Shown in pieces: positions 19,801 through 62,569 of a stretch of 64,000 bases of DNA. Position 1 is the first letter of the stretch. Every line of letters starts with the position of its first letter. The DNA is from Ulva prolifera (lineage: Eukaryota > Chlorophyta > Ulvophyceae > Ulvales > Ulvaceae), in NCBI GenBank assembly GCA_023078555.1, contig CM041202.1, forward strand, positions 2,290,022 to 2,354,021. Direction: 5' to 3'. Position numbers and translations under genes: made by a program. A model generated the notes under the pieces. The model saw only the letters and a list, made by a program, of their open reading frames with translations, was not told the DNA's origin and ran no database searches.

Positions 19801-22800
19801 AATTGCACGGAGGGTCGCATGTGTACACTGCTGGCGTGTTCCCGCAAACTGTGCACATGTAGCGGCTTCGGGGATTCACGACTCATTCATCAGGCGAGGT
19901 TCACCGGGGAACTTTGCACACCTCGCTGGCGCGGCGGGGCAGCAGGTCGGAGGTGTGCTTCAGCAGCTCGGAGAGGAAGTCGCCCTGCGCGAACAGCAGC
20001 AGCGCCTTGAGGGCCTCGCAGTGGCGCATGAAGCCGAGGCGGCCGAGGGTGACGCCCTTCAGGCGGTCGTCCACGCTCGCGCTCGCACGCTCCACCAGCG
20101 CGCGCAGCGCCGCCACCGGCTCGGCCTGCAGCACGCGCGCGTGTGTCAGTGCGTCCTTGCATGAGAGTCGACGGGTGCAATGCTACCGCAAAGTAGGAAG
20201 CCCACGCGCGACACGGTTCCTGCTCACACACACGCAAACAGGCAGCATCTGGAAGCATAAACCGCACCAGCTCGCCCAATGCCAGTGTGTGAGGCCAGGC
20301 CACACACATACCTGGAGTATCTAGCTTTCACTACAATCAAAATTGTTGTTCGAGGTACTCTACTCTGTCGCAAGTGAATGAGATCGTGACAAGATGTTTG
20401 CCTCATGGGATGGTGGTTTCAGGGCGCCTGCGATCTTCGGCTCCGATGACTGATTCATGGGTGTGGTCAACATAGAGACATCCAGAGAGGCAGGTGGATA
20501 TCAACGGTGGCAGCAAGCATGCAAAACATTGCAAGGCAGGCAGGGGCTGGCAAGATCAAGGTGGATGCTACCCGCGCACGGGGTGCTGTCAGTTTTCACC
20601 TGTGCGGATAAAACAGCCAATCGGAACAGCACCCACACCAGCTGCGGGCTTACTCTTGCCGCGCCACGGCCGCCACTCTTACACAGATAGCATTGCTACA
20701 GACACAGAGACATTGCGACCTGGAGAGAGCAATCCCACACCTGCTCACCAAAGTCCGGCGCGACATGCGCCTCCGTCGCAGCCTGCTGCACCCACGCCAC
20801 ATCATCACACTCCCCCCGCAGGAAGTTGATCGACTTGCCTGCCCGCAGGATCCTCTCGGCGAGCTGCTCGTCGATGAACGCCGGCACGAGCGCGAGCCGC
20901 AGCTCGTACGCGCTGTGCCACGCGTCGCGCAGCGGCGCCTCCGCGGCGCCGCCACCACCGCCAGCGGCATCGGGGCACGCGGCGATGAAGAAGTCACCGT
21001 GTGCGTCGTCAAGGCTGCCCTCGTAGATCCAGCGGTTGATCATGTCGAGCAGGGGCACGCACACAGGCCCGAGCAGGCGCTTCGCGAAGCCGCGCTGGAA
21101 CTTGCAGCCGCACGTGGTGAGGCCATGCACCGCCGTCGCGATCGCGCCTCCCTGCACCGCCCAGCCCCGCTTCTCCTACTGGCCCCTATTGCAATATGAT
21201 AATTGTCATCTCTTTTGGGCGGGCATGCAATTGGTGTATAGGTGTCTCTCGGGTGTATATGTGTTTCCTAGCTGCTACACGCCGCAGCAACGTCGTTCCA
21301 GAGGGTCCTCAGACGCGTAGGTGTGTTTCCCATGTACAGCAAAGCTTTCTCTCTGTTGTAGTGCTCAACCAGTGCTCCATACTCGTAGCGATGTGCATGA
21401 AGAACTGGAATGCCACCACAACACTTTCGCAGCTACCGCATTTTGCAGGCATATACGGCAGGCCGCGCCGCAGTGTGCTGCCGCGCACCGATTGCGACAG
21501 CGGCGGCATCACCCACCTGGTTCGCTTGCAGACCATGTGCCAGGAAGCGGCGGTGCAGTGGCCAAGGGCCCTCAGATCTTGCATGCATGAACTTGCGATG
21601 TACTCGAGGAATGCAACCGAGTCACACGACAGAGACAGGATCCAGCGTTCAACGACAGCGCCGGCTCAGGCAGCACACCCCGCACAGCACAGCACACTCG
21701 CACAGCACACTGCCGCGAGGTGGCAGAGCAGGTTCGCTCATATTGCCAGGGTTGTCACCCCTCACTCTCAACTTGAAACACTTGAAACGTCCGAAACAAT
21801 GGGACTGGCCACCCAAGAGCGGCTTTCGGCCCTGGCGCTGCCGCCCCGTCACACCACAGCACACGGCACGCGCAGAGCGGCGCACCTTCCGCCCCTCGCA
21901 CTGCTGCGCCACGTGCGCGAGGATGCGCATGCGCCGGGTGGGGTCGAGCAGCCACACGCGCAGCCGCCGCACGGAGAGGTAGGTGTTGTCGGCGGCGGAG
22001 CGGGGCCGCCGCGCGAGCGCGCCGAGCATCGCCATGAGGCGGTAGAACTCCCGCAGCTCGTGCTGCACGACGGCGTCTGCAAAGGCCTGGTGCACGATGC
22101 CGCGGCCGGCGGTGGCGGGGTTGTGGCTGTAGTAGCCCACCATATCCATCACCTTCCTGCAACGAAAGAAAGGCAGAGGTCGGAAGTCTCGCCTGCAGGC
22201 ATGTAGTATGAATGGCAGGTAGTACCAGCCACACAGGCTTGAGCTACTGCATGGCACAATACCAAGATGGAAATGTTCCTGCAGGCATCTGCGGCGTGCC
22301 TGTGTTGGCCTATTGGGAATTGTTGAATATTCAATACTCAGGCAGCATGTCACAGACAGTCGCAGCATGGGCATACAGGGATCTACAGTCTGACAGCGCT
22401 AGCAGCGACTCGAGTGACCAGACACAGAGCTCTGAAGCGGGCGCTATCTGCCACAAAGGCAGCAGACGCGACGCACCGGGGATGTACAAAAGAAAAACTA
22501 TAGTCTGGGAGATAGCAGATGGGAAGGTGAACGGCGCACTTGTAGAGCCAGCCCAGTTCACACATCAGCAGGATGGTCGACTGCATGCTGCGGGGCAGGG
22601 CCCCCGCGGCCGCGGCCGTGAACTCAAACTCTGAGCTGTCGTTGCCGCGCCGGCGGAGCAGCCGGCCCTGGACTCCCTGGCAGATGATCAGCACATCCTT
22701 GATGATCGCATCCTGGGTGTCTGTAGGTACCTGCACGTCCACTGCCACGTTCAGAGGGCCTCCAGCTGTGGTGGGCTGAGCTTGCTCTGGACGATCTACT

Positions 22801-25421: not shown

Positions 25422-28400
25422 ATGCAGAAGACTGCCTTGTGGGCATTGTGTGCACTTCTGCTGCTGGTCGTGACGCAGGTGCGCTGTCAGCCCATTCACC
25501 ATTTGCTTGCCGGGCGCATGTAAATAAGCGTGAACTCACCTGAATTCACATGCGCAACCCGGATGTTGCGCAATGGAGTGTCGGACAACGTCAGTTCCAT
25601 ACTGTTGTATTTTCTTGCAGCTCCGAAACTTTCTGCAGCTGAATTCGTCTAGCAACGGCATCCGTTGCGCTGCTCTCCACGTCGGGCCTGTGTGAAGTCC
25701 GCCAATACACCAGATGAATCACGACAGGATAAATTCTTGCAACAGAGAAAATTGTATTTCGTATGCAATAGTTTTGCTTCAATTGCACAATTGCCTCGCG
25801 GAATATTCGTTGCATTAACCGGCCACGCTGGATCTGCGATGTCGGTTTCGATCAGGACAACCGCTGCGCCCAGGACCATTCACGAATATTGCACAAGTAT
25901 AGCAGAGCAAGGACGTTTCCAGATGTGCGGGCAGGCTGCCTAGGTGATCCGATGTTTCGGATTGGGGTACATGTTGCGTGCAGGCTGCCCCACTAGAGCC
26001 CCTCGGCCGCTTCAAGGTCAGCTTTCAGTCTGGCTCAGATGTATCCGGTACCACCCTCCCCAAGCTCTCACGCGAACTCCCACAGCCTCAGCTTAAGACT
26101 GTTTCAGACACTCACACAGAGGAGCATAATGACATCGTTCCTCATCTCAACTCGCTCAAGGCCGCCCTGCCTGCGCCGGACTCGAGAGTCAACGTTTCAG
26201 ATGTCTTCTGGATGACCACAGTCATGGCCGCAGCATGTGGCCTGGGAGCCATCCCGTTCTTCTTCATTGACAAGCTCTCCAAGGGCTGGGCAGCAATGGC
26301 GAATGCAGTGGCATGTGGTGTCATGATTGCTGCATCATTCGACCTTCTCCATGAGGCAGAGGGCTACGGAACTGCACCTCTCATCCTGGGCCTGGTCACT
26401 GGCTGCCTGTTCATCAAGTTCATGCAAGACTGGCTTGAGCAGTACGAGGACGTCAAGTTCCAGGACCTCCGAGGGGCAGACGCCCATAAAATTCTCCTAT
26501 TTGTGGGGATCATGGCGGCGCATGCAGTGGGTGAAGGGTCAGGAGTCGGTGCGCTGTTTGCCCGCAATGCCATAGCTTGTGAGCGTCACTGTTCGTGGCA
26601 ATTCACAGCCGTTGTTTGCATAAGCAAGTCTGAGCCAGTCCACACCTGCTCTGGCAGAGAGCAGCTCCGCAGTGCATGTCGATGAGAAATCACATTTGCA
26701 CTTCACTGGATGCATGTGACATCACGTCTCCACTTCGAGGCCACCTGGCCGAGCCCTTGCTGCTCTGCATTGCGCTGCCGTGCCGATATGGTCTCAGAGT
26801 CAATCCCTGACTTACTGAACTCAATCACGCCAGCACACACAATGCCGCACCTGGGACGCAAGCAGTGCCCCGTGCCCTCTTGTTCAGCACATGCACACAT
26901 CCTAGTCACAGCTTCCGGGCAGCATTTGGCACATCAATTTAATAGCATTCGGCATTTCAAATCGACAGTTCACGGGCGTCAAAATCCGCAGTCACGTCAG
27001 GTAGAGTTTGCAGCAGCAAGTGTGGCCTGCCCATCCCCGCGGCTGTCACCGCCGCAGCACCCCAGCGGGCACAGTATGCAAGTTTACATGCATGCACCAA
27101 AAACCCATGTGACCCCAGTTTTCCAGTGCCGGAAACATTTGGTAAGGACATGGCAAAGCACGTCGAGGCATACACAAATGTACTGTACTTCTGCAGGGGT
27201 GTCCTTCTGCGGCCGCCGTGGCTGGGCGCATGGTCTGCTCGTCACGCTCGCCATCGGCATCCACAACATCCCAGAGGGCCTCGCGGTCGCGACCGTCCTC
27301 GTCAGCCGCGGCACGACCCCCCGCAAGGCGCTCGAGTGGACGCTGCTGTGCGCGCTGCCGCAGCCGCTGTTCGCGGTGCCGAGCTACATCTTCGTTGACA
27401 GCTTCCGCGCGCTGCTGCCGGCCAGCATGGGCTTTGCGGCCGGCTGCATGCTGTGGATCGTCGTCGCGGAGCTGCTGCCGGACGCCCTCGAAGACATGCC
27501 TGCAGGTCGCGCCCCGCTGCAGGCTGCTTGTCTGGGGAGGGGGGGCGCTGGGGTGAGCGCAGAGCTGGGCGCTGCTGGTTGCTGCGGCGTTGCTTTCTGG
27601 GCCTGGCGTTTGTGATGCAGTGTAGCTGCTGGTGTGTTGAGGAGTCGCAGATGCAGGGGGGAGATTGGTAGTGTACATTTTCCTGTGGTCTGTGCATGGA
27701 TGGCTTGAGAGGGCAGATGCGTGGGTGTGTGCATGCTGAGGCTGGTGTGGAGTTGTGGCGGTGTGCAGGGAATGTGGCGTCGGCGGTGACGCTGTCCGCG
27801 ACGGTCCTCGAGGGCATGCGCTCCATGCTGTCCGCCATCGAGCAGCCAAACGGCTCCCTCTCCGCCACCCTCTCCGGTGACGTAGCGACCATCCTCCAGG
27901 CTGCTGCCGCAGCCGCGGTTGCCGCCGCCGCGGCGGCCGCGGCCGCGGCGGTGGCCGCGCCGCCTGCGGCGGCGGCGGGCACCGCCGCCGCGCAGGGCCG
28001 CGCAGCGGCCTCCGCCGGTGTGCTCGCAGCCGGCGGCGCGTGGACGCTGGTGGCGCTGCTGACGGGGCGGCAGCAGGGGGTGCTTGCGACAGTCGCTCTG
28101 GCGGGGGTCGGGGCGGCGCTCGTCGGCGGGATGTTCCAGCAGCAGGCGCAGATGCTGCGCGAGAGCATGCGGCCGGACCACAACGGAGGTGACCTCGAGG
28201 CAGGCGGCGGTGAGGGGGCACCAGTGCGCCCTCGCACCACCTCTCTGTTTGCCTCAGTGGGGTGCTCTCTCACAGACTTGCAGACTTGTTTCCGCTTCTG
28301 ACGTAGCAATGCATCCATGGTATGGCATACATCGAATCTCTCATCCTGCATGCCAATTTTTTGCAACACGCGCACCCAAGGCAAGGTGACCCGGTATACT

Positions 28401-32969: not shown

Positions 32970-33932
32970 CTACGCCTTTGCAACATGGCACATCCTCAAC
33001 GACACAAACGTCACAAAGCAGACGGTCAAAGAGATCATGACAGTCTTCGACGAAAGAAGAGCTAAATACATTGTAGCAAAGCCGACCCCCAGAAACGCTA
33101 GAGCCCCTACTGTGCACACCACTCGTTGCAGCAGTGTCTCCTGAGCGGTGTAAGCCAGCTTGCAGTCGTGACCCTGTCCCGGCTGGTAGTGTGGCAGGCC
33201 CTTGGCGTCTGCTGTGTGCACAGTCTCCCACATCTGTCCCCACAATGTCTCAAACTTTTCCCAAAAGGCATCAAAGGACTCAAACTCATTCGAGTCCAGC
33301 ACCTCTGAGAACCCGCACACCAGAGGTACCCCGAAGCCCACTCTGAGCTCCTTCTCTGACAGCAACCGCTCTTTGCCTCTGGTTATCACGATTTGTAGCT
33401 GCATTTTCCGGGAGTGGCAGTACTTGAGCATGCCTCTCTTCAGGGGCAACGCCTCGGGCAACAGATTTCTATGGCCCTCTGGATATACATTCAGGCCTTT
33501 CTGTGCCGAAGCGGCGATGGCTCGATCAAGCCATTTGTTGAAGGCATCCTTGTCTTTCACTTGATTCCTGTTGAAGAACTTGATGGACTTCAGAACATAT
33601 GCAGATGAAAGGAACACTGGGAAGGCAGCAAAGACAGCCCATCTGGACAGGGTCGCCGCTCGGCCTTCAGTAATGTAGATGTCGAAGAAGAAGTCTGTCC
33701 AGGACCGGTGGTTGTGTATGAACATGATCGGTGCTTCTGTGCGGTGTAGCTCTTTGTCGCCTACCTTCTGCAGGGAGGGCTGGAACCACATGACCACAAA
33801 CTGAGACCATCTGAAAATATCTTCTCTAGTCTTGCTGGGTGACAGGAACTTGACGTAGTACACGAGACATGCAATGGCAAGCGACCAGTACATGAAGCAG
33901 TAGGTAGCAAAAAACGCTGGTAGGAGAATCAT
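32970..33932 (-). CDS. PlsC-type acyltransferase (probable 1-acylglycerol-3-phosphate acyltransferase)
   Basis: Membrane enzyme likely to acylate lysophosphatidic acid or a related lysolipid. The first ATG in the frame is at 33932 (MILLPAFFATYCF), giving 320 residues; the frame itself opens ten codons earlier at a TTG, so an upstream exon is possible. N-terminal residues 1-30 form a membrane helix. NHRSWTD holds the catalytic His75 and Asp80 (H-x4-D), and YPEGHRN (about 150-156) is the EGxR acyl-acceptor motif. A second hydrophobic region ends the protein (about 275-315). Unlike the other genes here it has no intron and is only about half GC, with few of the GC-ending codons its neighbours use. 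Exact substrate cannot be read from sequence. Confidence 0.85.
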   Translation of the reverse strand: MILLPAFFATYCFMYWSLAIACLVYYVKFLSPSKTREDIFRWSQFVVMWFQPSLQKVGDKELHRTEAPIMFIHNHRSWTDFFFDIYITEGRAATLSRWAVFAAFPVFLSSAYVLKSIKFFNRNQVKDKDAFNKWLDRAIAASAQKGLNVYPEGHRNLLPEALPLKRGMLKYCHSRKMQLQIVITRGKERLLSEKELRVGFGVPLVCGFSEVLDSNEFESFDAFWEKFETLWGQMWETVHTADAKGLPHYQPGQGHDCKLAYTAQETLLQRVVCTVGALAFLGVGFATMYLALLSSKTVMISLTVCFVTFVSLRMCHVAKA

Positions 33933-35468
33933 CTCTACGGTGGAGCAACTGTACGAAGCCAAAGAATATACGATGTAACTGAGTGTTGGCTGTGCAAACT
34001 TCGCTGATCAGATGAGCGAACACATGTCAGACCAGACTTTGGCGCGAGCGTCGAAGCGATGTCTCGCCATTGCTCTGTAGAGCATGCCAAGTCGCCTACC
34101 CCAAAACGAATTCCAACAGGAAGGTTTGTAATGCTAACACACAAATGGCAAATACCATTTTTGATGAGTTTTGTGGAGGTCACGATCGGTGTCGCAGAGG
34201 GGTGTGCACCGGCCATTCGATCATGGCATGAGCACTGGGCGGCGCGGGGCGGCGACAAGCATGAGGTTGCCAGTGGCTGACATTTGTTCAGGACATGCAA
34301 CAGGAGCTTTGCACCGACAAGCTGAGCAACACCCCATGCTGGATCTCCTAGCCATCTTTGCCTGGGTGCTGGGGCGGTTTTTAAGGTCGCTTAGCCCTAC
34401 ACTCCATCTGCAAAGCAGTGCTCAGCCTTGTGCTCCGCAAGAGGTGTAACTCGTCTCCCTAGGCAGACCGGAATTGCACTGAATTTGGGTCATTATATCA
34501 GGTTTTGGGGCATCAATGCTGTCTGCTGGCTTGTTTAGTGGGTGCAGGGCCGTGTCCAGGCCAACCGCTGTCTCAGCATGCCTCACCCCATCATTCTCAG
34601 GCAGCCATGCATCGGCACACGTGAACGGATTTGCGAGTAGATGTCAACTAACACGGCTAACCTGTGGCGGTAGGCGCCGCACCTGCGCCTCATCAGCTGC
34701 GTCAGAGGCCGCTGAATCTGACACCAGCACCGAGGAAGGTGCGCTCCACCAGCGCCGATAACCTGCAAGTAAGACCAATGCCACTGAAGTGGATGTCTGC
34801 ACCAGCTGACTTGGTTGCTGTACACGTATACGAGCGGGAGGCCTCGATGTATAGCAGCTCCACGCCTTCAGCGCCTGCCAACGCACATCACAAGCGCATG
34901 CGCTTTAGCAGCTTACCACCGTAAAGATCACTGAACGGTCGCTTTCCTGCTGAAAAGTCGCAGTGAGCGTGAGCGTATCTCAAGTCAGGTACACATTGCG
35001 TACGCTGGCCAATAGTGTATCAACGCCCACTGCCTAGTCTGCCTCACGTACGGCAAAGCATGACTGCTTGTGTGCCTTCTCAGTCTTGTTTCAGTCACCT
35101 GCAGATTTGTATGATATCGGCAGCTGCTGCACCAGATAGGCAGCCCCTCGGGGACTGCACAAGCATGACCACTGTGGACACCCTCGTGGCCCGGAGGACC
35201 TGTTCGACTGAATCCCGCAGCCTATGAGCGGTAGTTACATAGCCAATCATCAATGATGTCCTGCCAGCAGATAGGACTTTCCATGATGATCCTGTTCGAC
35301 TGAGGCACAAACAGCATGTAGCTTGCGTGTCGCAATCATTGACACCTCTCGTGGGCCCTCACCGCTCACACATAGTATGGCAGCTAATCACGACTAGCTC
35401 CACCACAGGCGCAATATCCCAGTGCGTCCCATCAGCCGCCGCCTCGCCGTCGTCACATCGCTTCACCC

Positions 35469-35566: not shown

Positions 35567-36290
35567 ATGTCGGATCCATACTACAACCACATGCACAAAA
35601 GCAAAACCCTTTGGGCACGGGTTCATGCTAGGCGGTGTGGCTGTCGCGGGCGGCGGCCCTTGGGGCCTCTCCGCAGCTGTGCCTGCGGAGCCTTGCCTGG
35701 ACAGCCGCGCCCATGCGCTAGCCGCATGCCCAGCAGTGCTCCTGGCCACTCACTCACCACACCCACACGCACCAGCACACACCACCTTCCCCCGGGCTGC
35801 AGCCTTCCGGCGGTGGCCCTGGTTCTATCCGCCTGACGCCATATTCGCGTGTACATCGAGGCCAACACAGACACGCCCCTCCCGGCGGCGCCCGGGCAGT
35901 ATCGTGTTCGGCAGCACCAGCTGCGCATGCATCCGGCGTTTCTGAGTGTGGGACGGTGTGGGTTGGAGACATTCGCGCTGGCCGGGTGTGCGTGTGTGGG
36001 GATGGGTGTGGGACTTCGAAGTGATGGTGTGCATGGTTTGTGCCGGCCGGCTGCAGTGTTGTGCTGCTGTTCTGTGCGGACCGGCGGCGGTGGCGTGCGT
36101 GTGCCATCTTCCGATTCTTGTGGTGTGTGTGCGTCCCCTGCGATGCTTTGTACAAGTCGGAGCATTGTATTGTACACCACCCCGACGGTGTGGCTCGGTT
36201 GTGCCTGTGTTTGTGGTGCACGATACTCCTGCCGGTCTCCACGCCGATCCAGCATCGCGGTGTACCATCCCCAGCTCCCGCGTGCTGCAG

Positions 36291-39200
36291 GCGCCGCGGC
36301 GCCGCCGCTGCGCAACGTGCTGGCCGTGCTGCGCGAGCGCGACCTCCTCCAGGACGTCACCTCCGAGGCCCTCGGCCCGGCCTCCGCCGCGGAGCGCCTC
36401 ACTGTGTACGTCGGCTTCGACCCCACCGCCGACGCGATCCACGTCGGCAACCTCCTCGGCCTCATCGTGCTCTCGTGGTTCCAGCGCTGCGGCCACGGCG
36501 CCGTTGCGCTGCTCGGCGGCGCAACCGGCCTCGTCGGTGACCCGAGCGGCAAGAGCGCCGAGCGGCCGGTGCTCTCCGAGGAGGAGGTCGCGGCAAACGT
36601 GGCCGGGATCGGCGGCATCGTGGAGCGGGTGCTTGAGCGGAACCGCGGCGGCCTCGCGCCGGTCAAGGTATGCCCCCTCCCCCCTGAGCACATCCCCCTG
36701 AACAAAGGCCAGTAGCAGCGCAGGCTGTCCAATAGCACAACTATCCCCCCCCCTTCCCGCACCTCTGCACAGCGCCAGCGCAAACTTGTGCAATCACACG
36801 TGTACCCTACAATCACGTGTACCCTACAATCACGTGTGCCCTACAATCACGTGTACCCTCTACGTGTCCCATACAAGGAAAGAGATGGGGAGGCAGGTGA
36901 CACCGCCGGAACGATGCACGAGAATGGCAACACCGACACCACCGCCGCCTGCGGATGTATGCACAGCGGGCTTAGCCGCATCTACGGCAACACACTCGCG
37001 CGCGTGGGTTGTGTGCAGGTGGTGAATAATTACGACTGGTACAAGGGCGTCACCTTCCTCGGCTTCCTGCGCGACATCGGCAAGTACGCACGCATGAGCA
37101 CCATGCTGAACAAGGACTCCGTGCGCTCGCGACTCGCGAGCGACGCGGGCATGAGCTTCACCGAGTTCACCTACCAGCTCCTGCAGGGCTACGACTTTGT
37201 GCACCTCTGCCAGAACCACGGCGTGCGCGTGCAGGCGCGTCCCTCACCCCCCCTCACCCCCCCTCACCCCCCCTCCCCCGGCCCATTCGATGCTGGGTTT
37301 GCCCCGCTCTGCCTGTTGTGCAAGCTGCGCTGTTGTTCACGGCCATGGATATTGTTCTTGGCCATGGTCCGCTGCGTCGGCAATGCGGCGGTCGAGTGCG
37401 GCGATTTTTTGCCACGCAGGTCAGGATGTCGCGGCTGCACGTATATGGATCGGAGTTTGACCGCTTCTGCTCCTGCTACATGCCTCGCTACTTTGTGCAG
37501 CTGTGTCGCGAGCAGGGTAGCTGCCTGCCGCGCAGACGGTGTTGACAGTGCAATGCATGCAGGTTGGGGGGAGCGACCAGTGGGGCAACATCACGGCGGG
37601 GACGGACCTCGTGCGGAAGCTTCTCGGCGAGGAGGCGCCCCAGTGCTACGGCCTCACCTTCCCCCTCCTGGTGCGGCACTGGAACCAGCAGCACAGTGGT
37701 AGTTCTAAAAACTAGCTTCACATGCGCCACATGCATGTGTATTTCGATCGCTGCGCCTGCAGCACGGCCTCTTGCGCCGCACCTCATGCATGCTCTGTCT
37801 GCTGGAGGCGTCTAGCAGTCGAGCGAAGAGGCCTCCACTCCGGAGAGCCCGTGCGGCTACAGGTTACTGAGCCGTCATGCAGCGTGCTGCGTTGGTGAGT
37901 TTGTACGGTCAGCTGGACTGTTAGCAGGATCTGGGGCGTGGTGTTCCGCCCCCGGTGCTGCACCTGAGCTCGGCTGTGAGATGCCATGGCCTGCATGCGA
38001 CCGGCCACAGCACAGCATATGTACTGTGGCTGGTACGCGATGGCCGGTGCATGGGCAGTTCTCGTGTGGCTTGCTCATCAAAGGCACTTGTTCATGAGTG
38101 CACCAGAGCCATCCGCACCCCAACAGCGCCCTGCGCGTTCCCACCCGCCCGCTACACACGCTCGAGTTCCGCATGCATCCGGCGACCTCATCGCGTAGCT
38201 CACAGCGACCGGCGGTCGCTCAGCGAAGCGAGTACAGAGGTCTTCGTGCATAGCACATGTGCACACCCACACCCACACCTGCTTCACTCTACAGTGGTCA
38301 GCAGTGCTGACTCAGCGCATCGTCCCAGGTGGATGCGGAGGGCAAGAAGATCGGCAAGTCCGAGGGGGGGGCGGTGTGGCTCTCGCCCGACAAGCTCTCG
38401 CCGTACAAGTTCTACCAGTACCTCTTCGCGACGGCCGACGCCGACGTCGTGCGCTTCCTCAAGATGCTGACCTTCCTGCCCCTCGAGGAGATCGCGGAGC
38501 TCGAGGCGGCGATGGCGACGCCAGAGTACAAGCCCAACACCGCGCAGCGCGTGCTGGCACAGGAGGTGACGCGCTTCGTGCATGGCGAGCAGGGGCTTCA
38601 GGTGCCGTTCACTCACATAAAACCGATCATGAGATACACGATACATGCCCGGTATACAACCGGTGTACAGATGTAGAGAGAGATGTCGGGCTTCAGCATG
38701 AGTCCCTCGTGGGCAGGCCGCAGGCATCGCCTCACCGTCTGAATCGTGGAGCTGTCGTTCGTGTGGTCGACAGACAATCACAGGCAAGAAGCGTTGTGTG
38801 TGATGATGGAGCGAGGTGCCGGTGTCTGCGCCCATAGTCTTGAGGGTGGCATCAATGCATGGGACCATGCATGTGTGTGAACGGTCGGTGTCCGAGGGGC
38901 GAGGATGGCATGACCGATGCGGAAAAGCACTTGCTGATTGGAGAACAACGCGGATCGCCATTCGGCATACGGCGCCATCTATCCAGAGCATGTGTCCAGA
39001 ACATGTATCAAGAAGCAGGCCCAACGCCCCCCCACTCGCACACGCAACTTCCGCGCCGTCCATGCAGTCCGCGCTCAAGGCGACCGCGGCCCTGAGGCCC
39101 GGCACAGAGACGACCCTGGACGCAGAGACGCTGGAGGAGATCGCGGGGGACGCGCCGTCCATCGAGCTCACCAGGCTGGCCGCGGTGGCGCCGCTCGTGG

Positions 39201-39817
39201 ACGTCCTCGTCGCCGTCGGCCTCCAGCCCAGCAAAGCCGCAGCGCGGCGGTACGCCTCCTCCTTCTCTTCACTTCCCCCTCTCCATCCCATCCACATCCC
39301 CCCATTCCTCCTACCTCTGTCCCCTCATTTACCCCGTGTTTGTTCCCGCTTTCCCTTCGTGTTGTTGTCCTCCGCCACTCCTCCACCTGCCCAACCCCGC
39401 AGCACCGGAGCCGGCGTGGTCACCCGTTGTACGTGTAGGCGCCCTGCAGCTCTGCAGTGTCTACGGGAGGCGTCTGCCGTGCGGTCGTGTTGCTCTCTCG
39501 CGGTGCCACCTCCTCTGTCACGTGTTTGCCACATGAAGTCTGGCAGACCAACGCACATGCTGTCAGGGGCATACACCAGACACGCCACCACCTCCAGATG
39601 CCCCATCGTGCGATCCGCCCCGGTGACGCAGGATGGCGGTGCGCGTGCAGGATGGTGGTGCACGTGCAGGATGGTCAAGAACGGGGGCATCTACAAGAAC
39701 AACGCCAAGGTGTCGGACGCGGCGGAGGCCGTCGCGGAGTCCGACCTCGTCGGCGGCCGCCTCCTGCTGCTCGCCGCCGGCAAGAAGAACAAGATGCTTG
39801 TGCGCATCACCGACTAG
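36291..39817 (+). CDS. Tyrosyl-tRNA synthetase, bacterial/organellar type
   Basis: Charges tRNA-Tyr, probably in chloroplast and/or mitochondrion. Exons: 36291-36667, 37019-37234, 37563-37670, 38329-38601, 39068-39249 and 39670-39817; the first visible exon starts one base into a codon, so an upstream exon with the start and transit peptide lies in about 35560-36240 and is not resolved. Motifs in order: [18 protein letters not shown] (HIGH box as HVGN), [61 protein letters not shown] (KMSKS box), LSPYKFYQY, and a C-terminal S4 domain ([19 protein letters not shown]). Exon phases all agree. The second intron must use a GC donor (CAG|GCGCGT), because the neighbouring GT donor would delete the conserved residues just before GGSDQW. 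Confidence 0.93.
36791..36870. repeat. 18-20 bp minisatellite with CACGTG
   Basis: About four units of CAATCACGTGTACCCTAC in the TyrRS intron 36668-37018. Most units contain the G-box hexamer CACGTG. Copies differ by one or two bases. Confidence 0.8.
37242..37281. repeat. C-rich repeat (CTCACCCCCC)n
   Basis: Three to four near-identical ten-base units at the start of the GC-AG TyrRS intron. A pyrimidine-rich tract beside a weak donor could matter for splicing, but this is inference. Confidence 0.7.
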
Positions 39818-42800: not shown

Positions 42801-45111
42801 TTGCTGTGGCATGCCCCTTTCTGTCACACTAGGCGTGCAGTCACGTTGTGCGCCGTGTGCCTTAGCTGCATTCAGCTGGACAAGGCACGAGGCCTCGGGA
42901 TAATCAAGGTGCAATGATCAGCTCGGACTTCGCAAGAGCACATGCATATGTGATGACGGCGTTCGTAAGATCGAGGACGCTCGTCGCGAAGGTGGCCAAT
43001 GTGGTGGCGGAGGGTGGCAGCGAGGTGATCACAGCACAGCCTACCGGGACGCGACTGCGCCTATTTCCCTGCTCACGCTGGAACTCGCGACGAAACTTGT
43101 ACTGCATGAAGAACACATCAATAGCTATCGATACATCATTGTGTTGCGGCAATCGGGGCTGTGTGCGATGAGTTCGTTCTGACCCATGTCCTGTTGGCGG
43201 ACCGAATGGCGGAGGGTGACAGGAGGGTGGAAACCAGTTGACTACCGCGCGGGAAGGTGGTACACCCACACGACCACCGATCACCCGGCCACCATGGTGC
43301 ACCACCACGCTACCACCCACCACCACCACAGTTCACGACAACACCAGATGTGTCAATGCTGCTAGTGTGAGTGAGGCCTCATGAGGGGGCCCCGCCGGCG
43401 TCCGCACGCAGCAGGCAGCAGTTGCGGCCGTGGGCCTGAGCCCTGTAACCGGCTTACAATTGTTCCAGGACCCTGTACACCGCCGAACCCATGCAATTAG
43501 TCATCTCCACCCGAAGCTTGCCCGCGTCGGGGCGCCTCGACGCGTCGAGACGCCCTCGGTGACGATGCGGCCTCGTTGCGGTAGACACCGACAACCCTCG
43601 AGGGATCGCGAGCGAGGGTCAGCGTGCCGCACGCCTAGTCGAATTCTCAAATCGCAGGTGGCGTTCGCTCCTTGCCACGCCTGGTCTGTTCAGATTCTCA
43701 CGGGCCTCGCGGTTTTGCTGGGAGCCCTGTAGCCTACTCGCTCGCGGCGACGGTGCAATCGATTTGCCACCAGCGAGACAGCAAGGCCTGGCAACAGGGT
43801 TTTGTCTTCTTCCATTCACTCTTTTGTAATCCTGAAACTACAAGGCCTGGCAAGCTAAGCGAGCTAGCAGCTGCGCATGCATGCTCGTGGATCCTCGACA
43901 CAGCCAAGAAGGCGGGCTGAGCTGGTCATACCGCTGCATACTATAGCCATACCATTGCCCATGGTATAGTATACCAGTATTATCAGCAATAGTATGGTGC
44001 TGCAGCTGGCGTCCCGGGTGAAGCATAGGTCGACCGGAAGCAAGGGCTATATAGTATACCAGCGCGAGCTCGACAGCCTGAGGTCAGCATGCCCATGTCG
44101 TCGACGGCATGCCGCGCAGCGCAAACTCGTGCGCTGGCGCCAAACCCTTTCAATTCCTCGTCAACGGTGAACTGCAGCCGAGTCGGTGCAAGCGGTGGTG
44201 CCCCTGGCGGGTGTCATATGTGTGCGCACATCGGGGAAATCCCTGCTGCACAGTAAAATGAATTATAAATTGCGCGCTTGCCCCTCGCAATCGCGGCCGA
44301 GAAAGAGCTTTGAACGATTGCACTCATGATCAATGGTTCGTGCGTGCGAGGATCGACGCCAACAAAGGATGTAGTACATACGCCAGCTGGACCGGCGGAC
44401 ACAACGCAGCTGGCGGCGCGCCTTGAAGCAGCAATGCATGCTGCGTGCTGGCCCAGCTGGGTCGCAGCTGGGGTTTCGGCGGGCCAACCTCAGCAGCGTT
44501 GATCCAATCATGTTGCTGGCGATGCATCGCGATGGCGTCACAGATCCTTGATCTTGGAAGGAGCGAAGTTGGAACGGCGCCAAAGCCGCAGACCGGACGT
44601 TCATGCATGTGGCGCCTTACGTGCATCCGTGCCTTGTGTGCAGTATCAGCTGCAGCGCACGGTCACGACTACCCTTGCTACCTGCTTCCATACAGCTACA
44701 TGACTGCCGCGGAAGATCAGCTGCACCAGGTGGACCAGCTGTGGCAGCCACGCTGCAGCTGCAGACGCGCATGTAAACAGCCCTGCAATTCGGGCGAACA
44801 TGCATACATTGTACACAGGGGCATACTCTGCAGGACTTACTGATGCCATGAATTTCGATGCCTCGTGGAGCGAAACGGATCGAGGTATGAAGGCGCGTCG
44901 CATGCGTGCGTCAGAGCTCTGCAGAGGCAGGAGACGTCGCTCCGAGGCTCTCGACGTGGACGTTGTAGCCGCATGCTGTTGGGGTGATGGAACACATACT
45001 TGCTGCTATATGCCAGAATGCTGTGGTTGTCCTTGTTTCCTGCTCGACGGAGGCGTCTTAGTGACCGAACGTTTTCGGAGGAGGTCTAATCCCTTCGACG
45101 TACGGCGTACG
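39818..45111. other. 5.3 kb without a supportable gene
   Basis: Only short frames lacking motifs. Notable are the 20-bp palindrome at 41015-41034 and a CpG-rich island at about 43380-43740 with the 14-bp palindrome CTCGACGCGTCGAG. Exons of the VHL-domain gene could begin here, but none is convincing. Confidence 0.45.
41015..41034. repeat. Perfect 20-bp palindrome
   Basis: ATGAACCACC followed directly by GGTGGTTCAT, with no spacer. Could be a dimeric protein-binding site or chance. Confidence 0.7.
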
Positions 45112-45450
45112 ATGGGGAATAGTCAGCGTCACCAAAGAGAACAGCTCTCCAAGGGGAAGTATGTCACCTACAATCGCAGCACTCATTTACATGGAGTTGT
45201 GAGACGGACGTGTGCTTCATTCGTCAATCGCTCAACGGAGACGCTCAAGTTCATCTGGCTTGACTTCGATGGCAACCCACAGCAATACCATGTGGTCAGA
45301 CCTGGGCGGAAATACCATGTCTACACTTACAACACGCACCAATGGGTAGCTGAGGACCTATCTGGCACAGTTTGGGCTTCACACGTCTACGGTGCGTTTG
45401 TCTCATTTCACGCGGATGCCGCTCGTGCAGCGGTGTGTCGAAATTCGTGA
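45112..45450 (+). CDS. VHL beta-domain protein
   Basis: Small protein built almost wholly of the von Hippel-Lindau beta domain, which in animals binds hydroxyproline of HIF-alpha and bridges it to an elongin/cullin ubiquitin ligase. The start at 45112 (acgATGG context) gives 112 residues. From Trp49 the segment WLDFDGNPQQYHVVRPG, then RKYHVYTYNTHQW, aligns with human VHL 88-117 without a gap. Residues that hold hydroxyproline are kept: Trp49 (W88), Tyr59 (Y98), Thr72 (S111, hydroxyl kept), Tyr73, His76 (H115) and Trp78 (W117). The open frame extends upstream to 44800, but that part is Cys/Arg-rich and unlike VHL. A 60-codon frame beginning at 45392 overlaps the end (see separate entry). The biological target in an alga is unknown. 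Confidence 0.8.
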   Translation: MGNSQRHQREQLSKGKYVTYNRSTHLHGVVRRTCASFVNRSTETLKFIWLDFDGNPQQYHVVRPGRKYHVYTYNTHQWVAEDLSGTVWASHVYGAFVSFHADAARAAVCRNS

Positions 45451-54174: not shown

Positions 54175-57100
54175 ATGCAGGCGCAGCACGCCCAGCACGA
54201 GCCGCGCCAGGATGCGCCGCAGTTTGCTGTGCGGCGCAGCGGCCTTGCGATCCAAGGATGCCTGGTAGCCACCCTCGCGACCGCGGCTCTGCTCGCCACC
54301 CCCGCCGGAGCCGCTGCGGCCGCCCACGTAAGCGGCACTGAGGCCGCCAGTGGGTGGCCACAGGCGGTTCATATGGCCTCCTGGAGAGAGGGCTTGCGCG
54401 ATTGTGGACCGCAGCAGCTGCGGGGGTCGGCGTGGGGAGGGCCGTGTCCATCAAGTGGAGGCGACGCGGCCCCGGTGCACTGCCACGGCGGCGCCTGGGA
54501 TGGGGCGTCAGAGGACGGTCGGTGGCCCGAAGCACAGCAAGCAGCACCACAGCACACACATAGTGGCGGAGCAGATCGCGGGGGCCCATGGGATGACGGC
54601 GGGAGCTCGCTACGGCTGCGCGGAGCCGAATCTGTCGCAGCAGCCGACTTCCGCGGCATGCCGCTGTGGCAGGATCACGCCCTCCAGCGCGGTCAGGGTG
54701 CGATGCCCGCGGCGAGATCCGGCACGCCGGCTGCGCGTCACGCTTTCGGCCAGGGGGCCGCTGAGGCGCCCACAGCGCGGCGGAGGCTACAGCAGGCGCG
54801 CCGCGGCGCAGCGGCGGAGACGGCGGTTCGGACGGCCGAGGAGCTGCGGCGGGCGGTTCGGCAGGGGCAGCCGCACATCGTCGTGTTGCGGCACCTGGAC
54901 CTGGCGCCGCTGCGGCCGATTCGGCGGCTGCGCGCGGATTGGGCGCTCGGCTTCGCGCCCTCAACCGTGCAGTCCATCCGGGTGCGATGCCACTCCTAGC
55001 CATATGCTGCGCACTGCGCTGGGGGGAGGGGTGCCCGTTGCCAATACGCACCTCCAGCCACCCTAGCATCCCCTGTCAAACGGTGGCGGCTGGCTCAGCA
55101 TGTGACACACGCCTGGGCCACAGCATTGGTGGGGACAACAGCGGCAATGGTGAACTATGGTGCTGTGGCTATGCGCAGACCAGTCACTCCCATGGTGGTG
55201 CAGAAGTGGTGCGCCCGTACTGGGGCCCTGACGCCACACCTTGTTCACTACACCGCCGTGCATGCATATGCGCAGCTGCGGATGCGAATCCTGATGCGCA
55301 GGCATGGCGGCTTCCAGAACCCGCCACTGTTCCCGTACGCATGAAGCCGCATCTACCGCCCCTCATCACAGCACGCACAGCACATGCAGGGCAACTGCAC
55401 CGGCCCGCCTCCGACCGCGCTCGAGACCGGCTTCGCGGCCCCCCCGCTCCCACCACTGCTGCCTGGCCAATGCCTGCTGTCGTCCCCTGTCAACATTATC
55501 GCCGTGCGCGGCATGCTGTGGCTGGACAGCTTCGTGCTGCGCGCCGTCAGCCGGCCTGATGTCCGCAATGCCACGGCCGCCGGCCCCGCCGCTGCCGAGG
55601 CCTCGCGGGAGGATGCGGCAGACGTCCGGCCGGAAGACGCGCCGCGGCTGGTGACGGTGTCGGACGTTCCGGGGGGCGGAGAGCTGTGGATGACCCGGTG
55701 CTCCCTACAGGGTTCTGCGCAGGGCGCGTCAGGAGCCGGTGGCGGCGCCGTTGTGGGGCTGCATGTCGACGGCCGCGCGTTTGCTGACGGTGCGGCGCTG
55801 CTGCTGCTGTGTCGCTCTCTGCCCACCGCAGCGGGAGTACCTGCTGATGTGCTCTGACAGTTTTTTCTTTTGCTAAAGTCCAATGATCTGGCATTTATTG
55901 GCTATGTGCTTGGCGCCTGCCCGTTTCGAGGTGCGTAAACACTGTAGGACGCCCTGTGTGCCCTGTGAGCCGCGAGAATTACCTTGACAGATATGTCAAA
56001 CGCAAGGACAGTGCAAGTGTACGAATGACAACAAGGCACGGCTGCCCTGCTGCCCTGTGTGCGTGGGCCGGCCCTATGCTATTGGACCCGAGTCAGGCCA
56101 CCTGCCAACATTCTAACATCGTGTCACAGCATTTAAAGTACAGTAAAGTCAGTCTGAATTTACTGAGCCGTATCCTATTGGACATTGACAACTCCGAGTT
56201 AACAGGACCACACATGCCGAAGGGGTAAACCACCTGGAAACCCCCTCAGACGACCGTACGCAACTCACAGCATGTTTCTGCATACTTGAGGTGGACCTTC
56301 AGTATGTGCAGTGTTTGGGTGTCCGATGTTGCACCCCTTGGGTGGGTATGCCTGGGGTGCCCATGTAGGGCCACTGCTGCCTCTCAGGAAAGCTGCAGTG
56401 ATGCAGAGACTCTTGATTTAGGCCAAGTCTGCGTGAGTTGTGAGAAGCTTCTGAGTGCATGTGAGTGCCAGCAGTGCCTGTGCGGAAGTTATCCTACACA
56501 CAGATGTGATGCTTGTCTGCCACCTGTCCCACACATGTCTACACCACCTGCTGGCAAGCTGACTGGACCAGGCTGTGCTGGCTAGGCAGCAGCAATCAGC
56601 AGTCTGCACAGGCTTAGCAGACAGTGGCTGCTGTCTGCTGGCTTGCTGCAAACAGTGAGCACAGTCTGCTGGCCTCTGCTCCAATGCCCTTGCGCTTCAC
56701 ACACCACAGCACACCATGGCAAAACTCTGGATTTTGATATGCACCTTCGCCATGCAGCCATGCACACACCAGGTGCCCATGATGTCCAGAACACTTTCCT
56801 GATGTGGATGGGCTGTGCTCACACTGGCTGGGCCCAGAGCTACATACACTGCTGCTTCTGCTCCTTGTCTGTTTCTCCTGGTCATGCAAGTCTCTGCCTG
56901 CCTCCTGTGCAGAGAGTGCCAGTGCCAGTGCCTCACTCCTGAGGCTGCCCATGCATGGTTTCAGGACACTGTGGCTGGCTGTGCACATGTTGCAAGTGTG
57001 TTACAAGGACAAAGGCAGCAAGTGTCTCCCGGGTGATAGAGTGACAGAGTTGCGCTGCTTGTGTGCTGCAGACACCTTGCTCACTGCCTCTGTGCTATTT

Positions 57101-60100
57101 CCTCTCTTCATAGTCCACAAGTCTTGTTCCACTGCTCGAAGCATCCATGGAGGCCTGGATGACTGAAATTCTGGGCTGCTAGCAAATGCATGGCCCATGC
57201 ATGTATGACTATGCACTGCTCTGGGGTTTGTGCTGGTGGACACCACAACTGTGCACACTGCCCTGCAGCAGTGGCCACAAGTTTGTGATGGCCTGGCTTT
57301 GGGGATGATTTCCGACCAACCTTTATGGTGCTGGGCTGCAGAGGTGATTTGTGGAGAAAGGTGTTCTGTCTGTGGTGTTGAGGTGTGCAATGCTTGCTGT
57401 ACATTCTGCCTCTTTGGCTGCGCCAGTGCGAACACAATTGCAATACAATTGCAATTGTGCCACAAGGACAAAGCCAGGGAGGCAGGTGGTCCACAAACGG
57501 AGGAACCACACAGCCAGCCACACGCTTGTGTGTCCAGGCAGCTGTCCAAGCAGCTCAGGTGTGGCCTGCCAGGCAAGGCCTGGCGCTGTGCCTGGCAGGC
57601 AAGGCTCCCATCTGCGGCATAACGACCCTGGCAGTGCATGCTCCTGAGTGTTGCTCTAGATATAGTATAATTTGAATATTTCGGGGCAGCAGTGGGCTCC
57701 TGCTGGAGCACCAGTCCTATGACCAGCCAGGGAGCATGTGGAAAACATAGGATATGGCTCAGTAAATGTAGATTTACTTTACTTTACATTTCGATGAAAA
57801 CAGGCCCTGCTAGATCCAGAAACGTAGGATCGTTCCTGCGGGCTCCGGTGGTTCTCAACAGAAACCGCTCGCTGTTAGCAGTGTGGCTTTGAGTGACCAC
57901 TGCATCCATCATTCTTAACAGCAGCCGGCACCGACTATGACCTCCCCCGTTGCCCCTGCCTTCAATCTCAAAGGACACCCGGCCAACCATACACCTGTCT
58001 GGCCGCTGTCTGTTGAGTGATCACCCGGCCTGGCATGCATGCAGGATGCACCTTCGCGGCCGGGGCCTCCCCGGCCATCACCATCACCGGCAACCGCAGC
58101 TCCGCCTCCCTCTCCAACTGCACCTTCCTCCACGCCGCCCCTCCGCCTCCCGCCCCAGCACGCAGCACGGCCGCCCCCGAGGCCACCATTAGCCTCGGCA
58201 GCGGGACCGCGCTGCGCCTCGAGGGCGCCGCGTTTGCCGCGGCCGGGCCTGCCGCGGCGGTGCGGGTGCAGGAGGGGGCGGAGGGGGCGGAGGTTTTCAG
58301 CGACTCGGGGGCCGTGGCCGTGCTGCGCGGCGCTGACAATCAGACGACGGCGGAGGCGCCGCAGAGTCTCGCGGATGCGCACAGCCAGGGCGTTTTTCTG
58401 GGGGGCGATGATGCATGGCTCCAGAAGACGCAGCAGGTGCCCCCCTGCGCAGCACTCCAAGTGAACTGCGAACAAAAGAAAGAGTCGGTCGAGGTGTTGC
58501 CGCGCAGTAGTTATTTCCCAACCATCCTCAGGGCCCGGCCACATCTGCAAGGCCACGCTTTTTGCATGCAGGCGATAGGGTTCACCCCCCCGCAACCGCC
58601 CGCAGCCGTAGCTGCTGCGCCCGCCCCTGCGCCCGCCCCTGCCCCCGCCCCTGCCCCCGCCCCTGCCCCCGCACCCGCACCTGCGCCGCTGCGCGCCGAC
58701 ACACCGGCCGACGATGCCTCCGCACCTCCGGCGGCCACCCCCAGCACCGTCTCCATTAACCCTGACGGAGGCCGGGCGCAGACGGCCGAGGCGGCCGTGC
58801 AGCCAGCGCAGCGCGGCACTGCAGACGAGCAGGTGTCGGGCGCCGGCGTGGGAGGGTCCGCGGGCCTGGCCGAGGCGCTGGCTGCAGATGGCGGCGGGGG
58901 CGGCTCCGGGGGCCGGGGGCCCGACGCGCGGGTGCTGGCGGGGCTGCTCGCGGGGGCAGTGGCGTTGGTGCTGCTGCTGGCCGTGCTGGTCGTGCTGTGC
59001 CGGCGGAGGCGCCGTCCGAGGCGGCGAAAGGCACACAAGGTGCGGGCCTTTTTTGCCGCGTTCTCTCGCGCATCGCTGTGCAGTCTTCATCGTGCCTGCT
59101 GTGTTGTGCATGCAGCACGATTTATGGCGTTGCGCAGCAGCCTCTGGTTCCCGCTGGCGCTGTCCGGTGTCTGATGATCCCGCCCAGCACGCATGATGCG
59201 GTGGCCCATGCGGTGGCTTGCGGGGGCCTATGCATGAGGCAGCCTGTTGCCCACGTCTGAATGCTGAGCTGTGCGGCCCAATGACATGGAACAGCTCAAG
59301 CCGATAGAACCACTAGCAGGACTCGCTGGGGCCATGCTGTGATGTCCGCACTGACACGCGCCCTCTGACCTTGACAGCCTCGATGTTAAATGTGTGCACT
59401 CATTTACCTGCAAACCACCGTGCCACACAACAACCCTGCGTAGCATTGTCTAGCGCACTTTTGGCACGCCCCCGGCAGCGCATGCATGGCATGCAGGCGG
59501 CGCGCAAGCCGTCACACAGCCCCCCCTCAATGATCTCTACCAACCCCTACCTCCTCCAGGAGCTTTCGCCGTTTTCTTCCACCACCATCAGCCCCCCCAC
59601 CACCATCAGCGCCCCCGACCCCCTCAGCAGCGCCTCCTCAAAACCGGCACCCCCACGCGCAATAGATTCCGGCGCGGAAGCTGGGTCAGAGGGCCACACC
59701 CGCAGTGACGGCGCTCCCCCCCGCCCGCTGTCCAGCGGCACGCTGCGCGACCCCGGAGAAGACTTTGTGCCGCAGACGTGGCAAACCCCTGCCGCCGGCA
59801 ACCGCAACGGTGCCCTCAGCCACTCCACAACCCTGCCGCTGCCGCCGGGGCCGATGCCGTTGCCGGCCGGCGTCGGCATGCTTGACCTACTGAACAGCGC
59901 GGGCGCGCTCGGGCGCAGCATGCGCAGCATGCCCAGCTCGCGCAGCGCGAACAACGACCCCGCCCGCACCCACACCGACATCTCGGAGTCGCTCGAATAC
60001 ATGGCCAAGCCGCCGTCGCTCGACCTGCTGAGGGACCTGCCGAACAGCGGCGACGGCGGGCCGAGCTCGGAGCTCTACTCTGACGATCTCCAATCGACAG

Positions 60101-62569
60101 GGTCATACTACACGTCGGGGAGTGACGCCTGCACTTTCGCGCAGCACACAGCACAGTTCAGCTCGCAGCAGACGCTGCAGCGCTCCTCGGAGCTCACATC
60201 GCAGCTCTCGCCCGAGCTGGCATCGCCGTCCGGCGCCGGGTCGTCGATCTCGCGGTCATGTTCCCCGGTGTTCTCGCCATGCGCGTCGGCGCGGGAGGTG
60301 GCGATGCGCGCCATGCTGCCGATGCGCGCGCTGCGGCCGGGGCTTGGGCCGGGGTCCGAGAAGGGCGCGGTGGAGCATTCGACAGGCGATGTCGAAGGGG
60401 TCTCCGGGCCGCGGTCGTGCACGCCGAGCGACGCGTCGGCGCCGCTGACGTCAGCGGCGGGGGATACGTCGGCCGGGCAGACGACGCTGACGGTGTACAG
60501 CACGGACGGGACAGGGGTCGACGTGCGCGGCGCGGACGCGCCGCCGGCGGCGAGCGCCGCGCAGGCGGCGCGCGCCGCGCGCGCTGCGCGCGACGTGCGC
60601 GAAATGAAGCGGCGCTTCGGCCCAGCAAGAGACAACGCATGCATGGACCGGCTCGCGTTCATCCTGGCGCAGCTGGACAGCTACACCCGGCAGCGGCAGT
60701 TCATGCCGGGCCTGGTGCTCCTCGGCCATGGCCGGCGGCGACAGGGGGGTGCGTACCTGATACACCCTGCACTCTTGCTGCAGAACTCACAGCTTCTCTG
60801 GCAGCCCTGTCCTCCGCTCATGGTCCCTGTCCAGTCTTCACGGCCACGAATGTGGATGATCGAGTGCACTCAGTGCAGCGTCACCATCCCGCCGCAATGA
60901 ACCAGTGTATGCGCGTGTAAGCTTATCAGACATGCGTGGCTTTGACACGACACGACTCTACCGAGAGCCAGGCGCAAAGCTCTGGAATGTGATGCCGTTA
61001 TGCCCGCATGTCGCCCGCATGGTCAACGCATCTCCCCCCTTAACAGCACAATCCCGACACGCGGCTGCCACGCCGCTCCCCATGCCCGTGACACCTGCTG
61101 CAGCATGCTGTGCTGTGCTGCGCAGGGGAGGCAATTGTCCAGATCGCGCGCGTGTGCGACAGCGGGCGCGAGGTCGCGGTGAAGCTCTACGCGTCGCGCC
61201 GCGGCTTCGAGGCCGACGCGGCACGCAGCTCCAACGGCGGCCACGTGCTGCACCGCCTGATGCCGCGGGTGCGGCGGGCGTACCCTAACGCGGACGTCGC
61301 GCTGCGGGACGTGTGCGGCAACCCCCTGCCGCCATTCATCGTGATGGACAAGGCGGAGCCTCTAGATACCTACTGCAGCCTGCACCAACCTCGCCGCTCC
61401 GAGGCGTTCCGGGTGCGCATATGCGCATGCATGACTGCTGCCGCTGGCGCACATGAATTGAGGGAGATTGCGAAAGTGCGGCACTTGTGCTCGTTGCTCG
61501 CCTTGTTTAATGGCTCGAGAACTCGACAACCGGGGTCGCCGCGCGGCAGTGCAAACTAGCGCGCCCTTCTGTTGCAGCTCACATGCATGCACTGCCGAGC
61601 ATCTCCTTGCGGCTGATTTCAGCAACCCTAGGAGGTGTGCGGGTGTTTCCGTGTCTCTCATACATCGCTGTGCGATAATCCGTAGGCTTGTGAGACAGGG
61701 TGCTGACACAACGGTGGGGAACTGCTGCAGATGATTCTGGCCATTGCGGCAGTGCTGATGGACCTCCACACCGGCGGCCACGCCCACCGCGACCTGGAAC
61801 CCCGCCACGTCATGTGGCTCCCCTTCGAGAACCGCTGGACGCTCAGCGGCCTCGGCAGCGTGGCGCGCATCGGCGCCCCCGCGCCCCTCCCAGACACCCT
61901 CGCCGGCACCCGCGGCCCCCCGGCAGCGCCGCTGTATGCCGCGCCGGAGGCCGTCGCGGCGGCCCGGCGCGGCGACTCGGCAATGCTCACCACGCATGCG
62001 CTCGATGCGTGGGCTCTTGGCGTACTCGTGATCGAGCTGCTTGCCGGGCAGAGTGTCTTCAGGCGGTCCACTGGGCGGGATGCGGTACGAGGCTGCTTGC
62101 ATGTGGCCCATGCATGATTCATGCGCTCTACATATGCATGCATGCCAAGCGGAAATACAAGGCTTGATCTGTTACATGCTCCCCTGATCATGACCATTTC
62201 ATCTACACAGACTATGTATTTTGCTGAGCTTGTGGGGTATCTTGAGGTATGCAAGCGTCATCGTGACCATGAGATGGAGACCCCGGCGACTGCTCCAACA
62301 TGTGCATGTCCCCAAAGTGATTTTACGCGGACATCCTCCTCCATCTACAGGGGCCGACGATGCTGCGCGCTTTGCAGGTCATGGCGCGAATCGCAGGGGA
62401 CGGGGGTGTCCTGCCGCCGTGGGAGCACCCTGACACCCGCGGCCTGCTGCTGGGCACGCTGGGCCCGCTGCGCGACCCCGTGCTGGGCCTGCTGCGCTAC
62501 GCTCCGCACCAGCGCCTCACCATGCATGCGTTTGTGGAGGATTGTGAGCTCGCCCTTGCGGAGCGGTGA
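54175..62569 (+). CDS. Receptor-like transmembrane protein with pseudokinase domain
   Basis: Eight exons fit exactly in phase, 1392 residues: 54175-54981, 55390-55789, 58045-58436, 58572-59039, 59497-60748, 61126-61412, 61731-62084 and 62351-62569. A hydrophobic stretch at about 23-50 acts as signal sequence. The ectodomain has RTAEELRRAVRQGQPHIVVL, sequons (GNCTGPP, RNATAAG, SNCTF, DNQT) and ITITGN/SLSNCTF turns typical of pectin-lyase-like beta helices. A Pro-Ala repeat precedes one membrane helix (about 654-675) and a stop-transfer RRRRRPRRRK. A Ser/Pro-rich juxtamembrane part of about 400 residues leads to a kinase fold. Lys1126 (REVAVKLY), HRD, APE and DAWALGVLVIELLAG remain. The catalytic-loop Lys is Glu1225, the metal-binding Asn is His1228 and DFG reads GLG (1242-1244), so phosphotransfer is unlikely. 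Expected role: sensing a wall or extracellular ligand and signalling through partners. Confidence 0.78.
56166..56195 (+). repeat. 30-bp repeat shared with 9362-9391
   Basis: 28 of 30 bases identical to 9362-9391, including TTGGACATTGACAACTCC. A GGACCACAC motif follows at about 56206, and similar motifs flank the other copy. Confidence 0.6.
57000..57022 (-). repeat. Copy of the TGTAAC dispersed repeat
   Basis: GTTACAAGGACAAAGGCAGC on the plus strand, inside the large intron of the receptor-like gene. A weaker copy lies at about 57458-57485. Confidence 0.55.
58612..58690 (+). repeat. Coding repeat GCCCCTGCCCCC (Ala-Pro)n
   Basis: Six- to twelve-base units in exon 4 of the receptor-like gene encode about 13 consecutive Ala-Pro pairs just outside the membrane. 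Such stretches are extended, often hydroxyproline-glycosylated spacers in algal wall proteins. Confidence 0.85.

Follow-up and report, generated by a model that had tools for sequence, protein, structure and literature searches.

A receptor-like pseudokinase gene of Ulva prolifera with a probable beta-helix ectodomain, from an expanded receptor-kinase family

The stretch of Ulva prolifera DNA analysed here (64,000 nucleotides; GenBank assembly GCA_023078555.1, contig CM041202.1, positions 2,290,022 to 2,354,021 of the forward strand), referred to below as the window, contains at window positions 54175-62569 a gene for a receptor-like kinase (RLK) with altered catalytic motifs. By its sequence, the gene can be classified with high confidence as coding for a pseudokinase, and it almost certainly belongs to an expanded receptor-kinase family of the same genome, an assignment that rests on sequence comparison. 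Receptor kinases are a known kind of protein; here they carry an unusual ectodomain, and the window gene is a pseudokinase member. For the complete interpretation, namely a receptor pseudokinase with a likely beta-helix ectodomain whose kinase fold modulates intact paralogues, we see about even chances. The preliminary description of the window, made from its letters alone, had named an alga as the host, which fits 38 stretches of this genome assembly that match the chlorophyll a/b-binding family.

Joined in phase, eight exons give 1392 codons with 0 internal stops, and all seven introns have GT...AG borders, which bears out the single protein of 1392 residues that had been proposed from eight in-phase exons. 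The alternative frames of the joined coding sequence contain 20 and 18 stops, and base shuffles contained 21.8 on average, with a minimum of 12 (n=300). Among 96 listed combinations of donors and acceptors, 6 are open and yield 1361-1392 amino acids; because these vary solely in the acceptor used for exon 5 (59497, 59560 or 59563) and in that used for exon 8 (62351 or 62378), these two edges are unsure. The parts of the gene are as follows:

54175-54981, plus strand: exon 1, with the start, a signal-like segment (54241-54312), a variable low-complexity stretch and the first conserved ectodomain block
54820-54978, plus strand: ectodomain block e0 (TAVRTAEELRRAVRQG..HIVVLRHLDL), common to paralogues, profile match with E 5.8e-22
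55390-55789, plus strand: exon 2, ectodomain block e2 (GNCTGPPP..PGQCLL..LWLDSFVLR..LWMTRCSLQG)
55790-58044, plus strand: intron 2, 2255 bp, containing a 137-bp repeat
58045-58436, plus strand: exon 3, ectodomain block e3 (CTF..NCTF..VFSD..FLGGDDAWLQKTQQ), for which a beta fold of short strands is predicted
58572-59039, plus strand: exon 4, with an Ala-Pro spacer (about 58613-58697) followed by the membrane helix (58944-59000)
59497-60748, plus strand: exon 5, Ser/Pro-rich cytoplasmic linker, its RRRQGG end at the edge of the kinase glycine loop; acceptor alternatives 59560 and 59563
61126-61412, plus strand: exon 6, kinase N-lobe with the beta-3 Lys codon (61182-61184) kept and a conserved Glu, probably the alpha-C one, changed to Asp
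61731-62084, plus strand: exon 7, kinase C-lobe with HRDLEPRH (61785-61808) and GLG (61848-61856); APE and DAWALG kept
62351-62569, plus strand: exon 8, end of the kinase C-lobe and stop; acceptor alternative 62378

The gene model and hydropathy together give the architecture of an RLK, with a signal segment, an ectodomain, one membrane helix and a kinase. Judged by hydropathy alone, the protein has one strong membrane segment (residues 658-676) and a weaker hydrophobic segment near the N-terminus (residues 23-41), in line with the signal sequence and the single membrane helix assigned earlier. In a Pfam scan of the whole protein, Pkinase was the sole family above its cut-off (E 1.5e-11), and no LRR, malectin, LysM or lectin ectodomain appeared at E values up to 1, in agreement with the earlier statement that the ectodomain differs from the usual land-plant types. 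These are mostly LRR, lectin, WAK, DUF26, LysM or malectin domains (PMC10834447). The ectodomain had also been called rich in sequons, a generous wording for five N-x-S/T sites (271, 329, 419, 427 and 501), all of which lie within its conserved core.

That ectodomain and kinase are encoded by one gene can be stated with very high confidence. At the level of sequence, the best evidence short of a transcript is the layout of the paralogue L013, in which an exon with e3 and the membrane helix is followed by a linker exon with RRQGG at its end and then by the kinase, all within ~2 kb and with exon edges that match those of the window gene as judged by eye. The frame of exon 4 remains open beyond 59039 until a stop at 59172-59174, and on this basis two adjacent genes could be proposed, one for a membrane-bound ectodomain protein ending at 59174 and another for a separate kinase. 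Such a split near 59040, which the preliminary description had named as the outcome that would speak against it, is highly improbable in view of the compact L013 copy with its matching exon edges, and of the order and spacing of ectodomain and kinase that are repeated genome-wide.

The searches for further family members, made one exon at a time, covered the 44 contigs (88.9 Mb) of the assembly that contains the window. The window kinase domain found at least 122 stretches, four of them its own, and the top-scoring paralogue stretch had 43% identity (among the best 119 of 399 candidates). With a consensus of the C-lobe exon, at least 150 stretches were found at no fewer than 143 places, which include the window, three places on the small contig C23 and fragments of split exons. 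Because the kinase searches scored part of their candidates (119 of 399 with the window domain, 150 of 351 with the C-lobe consensus), the family counts are lower bounds. The window ectodomain matched 33 stretches, three of them its own, and a consensus of the second ectodomain exon (e2) matched 136 stretches at 135 or more places, window included. Profiles show that three ectodomain blocks are shared, e0, e2 and e3, which are found in window exons 1, 2 and 3; their sets hold 23, 25 and 22 distinct sequences respectively, each including the window.

For 87 of the 135 ectodomain places, a family kinase is located on the same strand within 9 kb downstream (median distance 4.8 kb), whereas shuffles of the strands (n=1000) averaged 44 such places and never exceeded 61. 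A kinase upstream, as tandem arrays would give, was found for 30 places, and one on the other strand for 5. Counted from the kinases, at least 80 places have an ectodomain upstream. The region from 7.19 to 8.74 Mb of contig C5 alone holds 42 of the 143 kinase places and 43 of the 135 ectodomain places. In the window gene, e0, e2 and e3 stand in this order upstream of the kinase, and its kinase exon falls within the paralogue clade. The architecture, which to the preliminary description looked like a separate invention, is not singular but common to scores of paralogues in the same genome. At 48 of the 135 ectodomain places, no family kinase is among the matches listed within 9 kb downstream; some of them may be paired, and some (G000:C10 1.757-1.811 Mb and others) may code for kinase-less receptor-like proteins. 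As a separate observation, contig C23 repeats at 14-27 kb, with the same or similar scores, the family members of C7 at ~626-639 kb, and is probably an alternative haplotype or an unplaced copy of them.

Compared with its closest kin, the window copy has HRDLEPRH in place of HRDLKPxN in the catalytic loop, with Lys replaced by Glu and the metal-binding Asn by His, and DFG has become GLG. Both the changes and the retention of beta-3 Lys, HRD, APE and DxWxLG (here DAWALG) had been reported before and are borne out by comparison with the paralogues. By definition, a pseudokinase lacks one or more of the three residues beta-3 Lys, HRD Asp and DFG Asp (PMC4718504), and in the window gene the DFG Asp is Gly, while catalytic Lys and Asn are lost as well. 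From several separate missense changes in an open frame we infer that sequencing error is not the source of the active-site changes, and this explanation was rejected. The glycine loop (GGEA) was dropped from the list of lost motifs since many intact paralogues have GQA there. Of the conserved positions, five of ten are lost in the active site versus two of 26 elsewhere (one-sided Fisher p 0.0105, one among eight rows tested, of which the other seven lack such a concentration with p 0.079 to 0.92). Such a pattern is more readily explained by a fold retained for binding than by general decay.

Among the paralogues, 70 of 105 C-lobe places could be read, which after addition of the window and L027 and removal of L073 gives 71 places, including both L016 and L017, the copy of the same kinase on C23; a second read of L026 results in 72 rows. 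HRD, K, N and DFG are all kept at 63 of the 71 places (64 of the 72 rows with a complete catalytic loop), and the motifs are altered at eight places, i.e. in the window gene and in seven other paralogues that carry losses of their own. Thus, as far as the sequences indicate, intact motifs dominate the family and catalytic losses recur. The preliminary description had held that homologues with intact motifs would mark the changes in the window as errors. Such homologues were found, but the conclusion does not follow, because seven other paralogues have losses, the frame of 1392 codons is open and the changes concentrate in the active site. In a tree of 97 columns with 22 open forks and long branches, the 70 family rows, window included, form one clade against four generic kinases (support 100/99). 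The eight altered rows require seven changes on this tree, three of which are forced by well-supported branches, and an equally low number was reached in 124 of 500 shuffles of the labels. The window groups with L028 and L036 (95/66), although this placement is unsure. One family kinase copy, L073 (G000:C5 near 9.744 Mb), is broken by an in-frame stop.

The ectodomain is probably a beta-helix, as judged from structure models. The model of exon 3 consists of short strands (model confidence, pLDDT, 83.6), and a second structural look at it placed polysaccharide lyases first (PL3 pectate lyase and PL6 alginate lyase), with low Z and sequence identities of about 8-13%. For exon 2, nine of eleven Foldseek rows were right-handed beta-helix polysaccharide lyases, all at E 3.3 or worse. 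The pectin-lyase-like turns described earlier gain moderate support from the short strands of exon 3 and from the top rank of pectate lyases, at low Z, in the second look. Elsewhere in the genome, a frame with a Pfam Beta_helix match (45.9 bits) is situated ~5 kb upstream of the family kinase C1:7171709 on the same strand. When the frames of this stretch were searched with the e3 profile, the Beta_helix frame scored 18.7 bits, and it may belong to the same gene as the kinase. An apparently separate expanded beta-helix family is seen at G000:C2 134-570 kb, where long frames with Pfam Beta_helix (many of 800-1080 amino acids) are dense.

In the function that we propose, the outer part would form a short right-handed beta-helix similar to that of polysaccharide lyases and would have a glycan or wall material as its ligand. 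Presumably unable to handle Mg-ATP normally, the kinase fold would transfer no phosphate; it retains the HRD His, the beta-3 Lys and APE, and where DFG has its Phe the residue is still hydrophobic. As co-receptor or restraint, the pseudokinase might bind one or more intact paralogues and switch or restrain them, and the ectodomain may decide when the pair of pseudokinase and intact kinase forms. We consider it likely that the window copy is functional rather than decaying, and the modulation of intact paralogues is a tentative proposal with slightly less than even chances. Several observations weigh against this interpretation. The model of exon 2 has a poor pLDDT (69.1), the top Foldseek row for exon 3 was an N-acyltransferase (E 1.0) with pectate lyases sixth and lower, no Foldseek match of either model reached E 0.001, and the Pfam scan of the window protein gave no beta-helix call. 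In the kinase, the N-lobe keeps 10 of 16 conserved positions and is the least conserved of those scored, and the end branch of 0.93 versus a median of 0.15 also fits relaxed constraint. Finally, synonymous sites are near saturation, and the test for constraint on this copy is a weak one.

The degenerate N-lobe would likewise be expected if the kinase were in early decay, i.e. losing function after duplication with the active-site changes as first scars and without a function of its own. The broken relative L073 points in the same direction, as do the eleven end branches listed as long, which include those of seven altered rows; the eighth altered row, L102, is short, and the intact L037 and three generic kinases have long branches as well. 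Such decay is unlikely in view of 1392 stop-free codons with GT...AG borders at all introns, the strong profile matches of all three ectodomain blocks, the concentration of the losses in the active site and a dN/dS ratio well below 1 on the window branch, which is an average over the whole length of the branch and a rough one, taken from one exon. Similarly unlikely is a decoy or dominant-negative receptor, which would bind ligand or partners through the ectodomain and block signalling, with the kinase fold as a passive tail. A retained ectodomain with catalytic residues gone agrees with a decoy, as does the possible existence of kinase-less forms at the 48 places mentioned above, whereas 24 of 26 conserved positions kept outside the active site are unexpected for a passive tail. 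Still less probable is a kinase of atypical kind that has remained active. In favour of it, the window copy keeps beta-3 Lys and HRD Asp, CASK is active without the DFG Asp (PMC4718504) and ILK1 is an active plant pseudokinase (PMC9403797), but three residues that handle metal or substrate are lost jointly in the window copy (Lys to Glu, Asn to His and Asp to Gly).

In addition, intron 2 contains at 56134-56270 the 137-bp repeat, of which at least 39 further copies were found with 93-95% identity (best 40 of 1624 candidates), and at 57747-57790 an inverted partial copy of 44 bp; the repeat is probably a short, very high-copy element. Eight of 20 frames of the window scanned against Pfam had matches, including a frame with a VHL beta domain (44704-45447, E 7.6e-10). 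By their Pfam matches (gamma-tubulin complex protein, ZIP zinc transporter, acyltransferase and tyrosyl-tRNA synthetase-like exons), the neighbours at 18818-22398 (minus strand), 26686-27612 (plus strand), 32973-34007 (minus strand) and 35837-39814 (plus strand) are ordinary.

Kinship of the family with RLK/Pelle kinases is doubtful, because PF00069 outscores PF07714 (66.9 versus 31.0 bits for the first member of the kinase profile set) and none of the 27 solved sequences that match the family kinase at E 1e-10 or better is named as an RLK. Many chlorophytes live with fungi, animals or bacteria. With considerable caution, and as a possibility somewhat less probable than the modulation of paralogues, we suggest that a green-algal lineage may have built a plant-style receptor-kinase repertoire independently, with more than 100 genes, partly in long arrays, that combine a general Ser/Thr kinase with a beta-helix glycan-binding ectodomain. 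Members would repeatedly have become pseudokinase co-receptors, and the resulting system would recognise cell wall, microbes or partners and owe nothing to RLK/Pelle. Being so large, and joining a variable outer part to a conserved kinase in which catalytic losses recur, the family would supply concrete candidate receptors and a separate test case for the origin of pseudokinase co-receptors. For chlorophytes, 1 to about 4 RLKs per listed species were reported, with 2 in Coccomyxa subellipsoidea (PMC10868138, Table 1), compared to at least 80 ectodomain-linked kinase places here, a comparison that is not like for like since the criteria of that study are of the RLK/Pelle type. No description of the family was met in the accessible parts of the open-access literature; prior notice is possible in supplements or closed journals, or in PMC6652019, where expanded kinase families with 52 members in total are described in Asterochloris glomerata.

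By analogy, STRAD-alpha offers a precedent for the window protein at the level of residues, and for its proposed function BIR2 is a precedent from the plant receptors. STRAD-alpha is cytosolic, whereas the window protein has an ectodomain. The partner of LKB1 likewise has GL at DFG and His at the metal-binding Asn and keeps a kinase-like fold, in which this His and the Arg of GLR replace the cation, whereas the window copy has Gly as the last residue of GLG; the likeness is one of residue changes only, as taken from that source (PMC4718504). Among Arabidopsis RLKs, about 20% are predicted to be pseudokinases (PMC4718504), and plant RLK pseudokinases such as BIR2, which competes for BAK1 (PMC10868138), are likewise built as receptors and have a dead kinase while related proteins have an intact one. 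Right-handed beta-helix polysaccharide lyases such as those of PL3 and PL6 are among the structures ranked for the exon 3 and exon 2 models, with the weak scores given above. Compared to the plant RLK pseudokinases, the window family differs in the type of ectodomain, and its kinase scores as a general Ser/Thr kinase.

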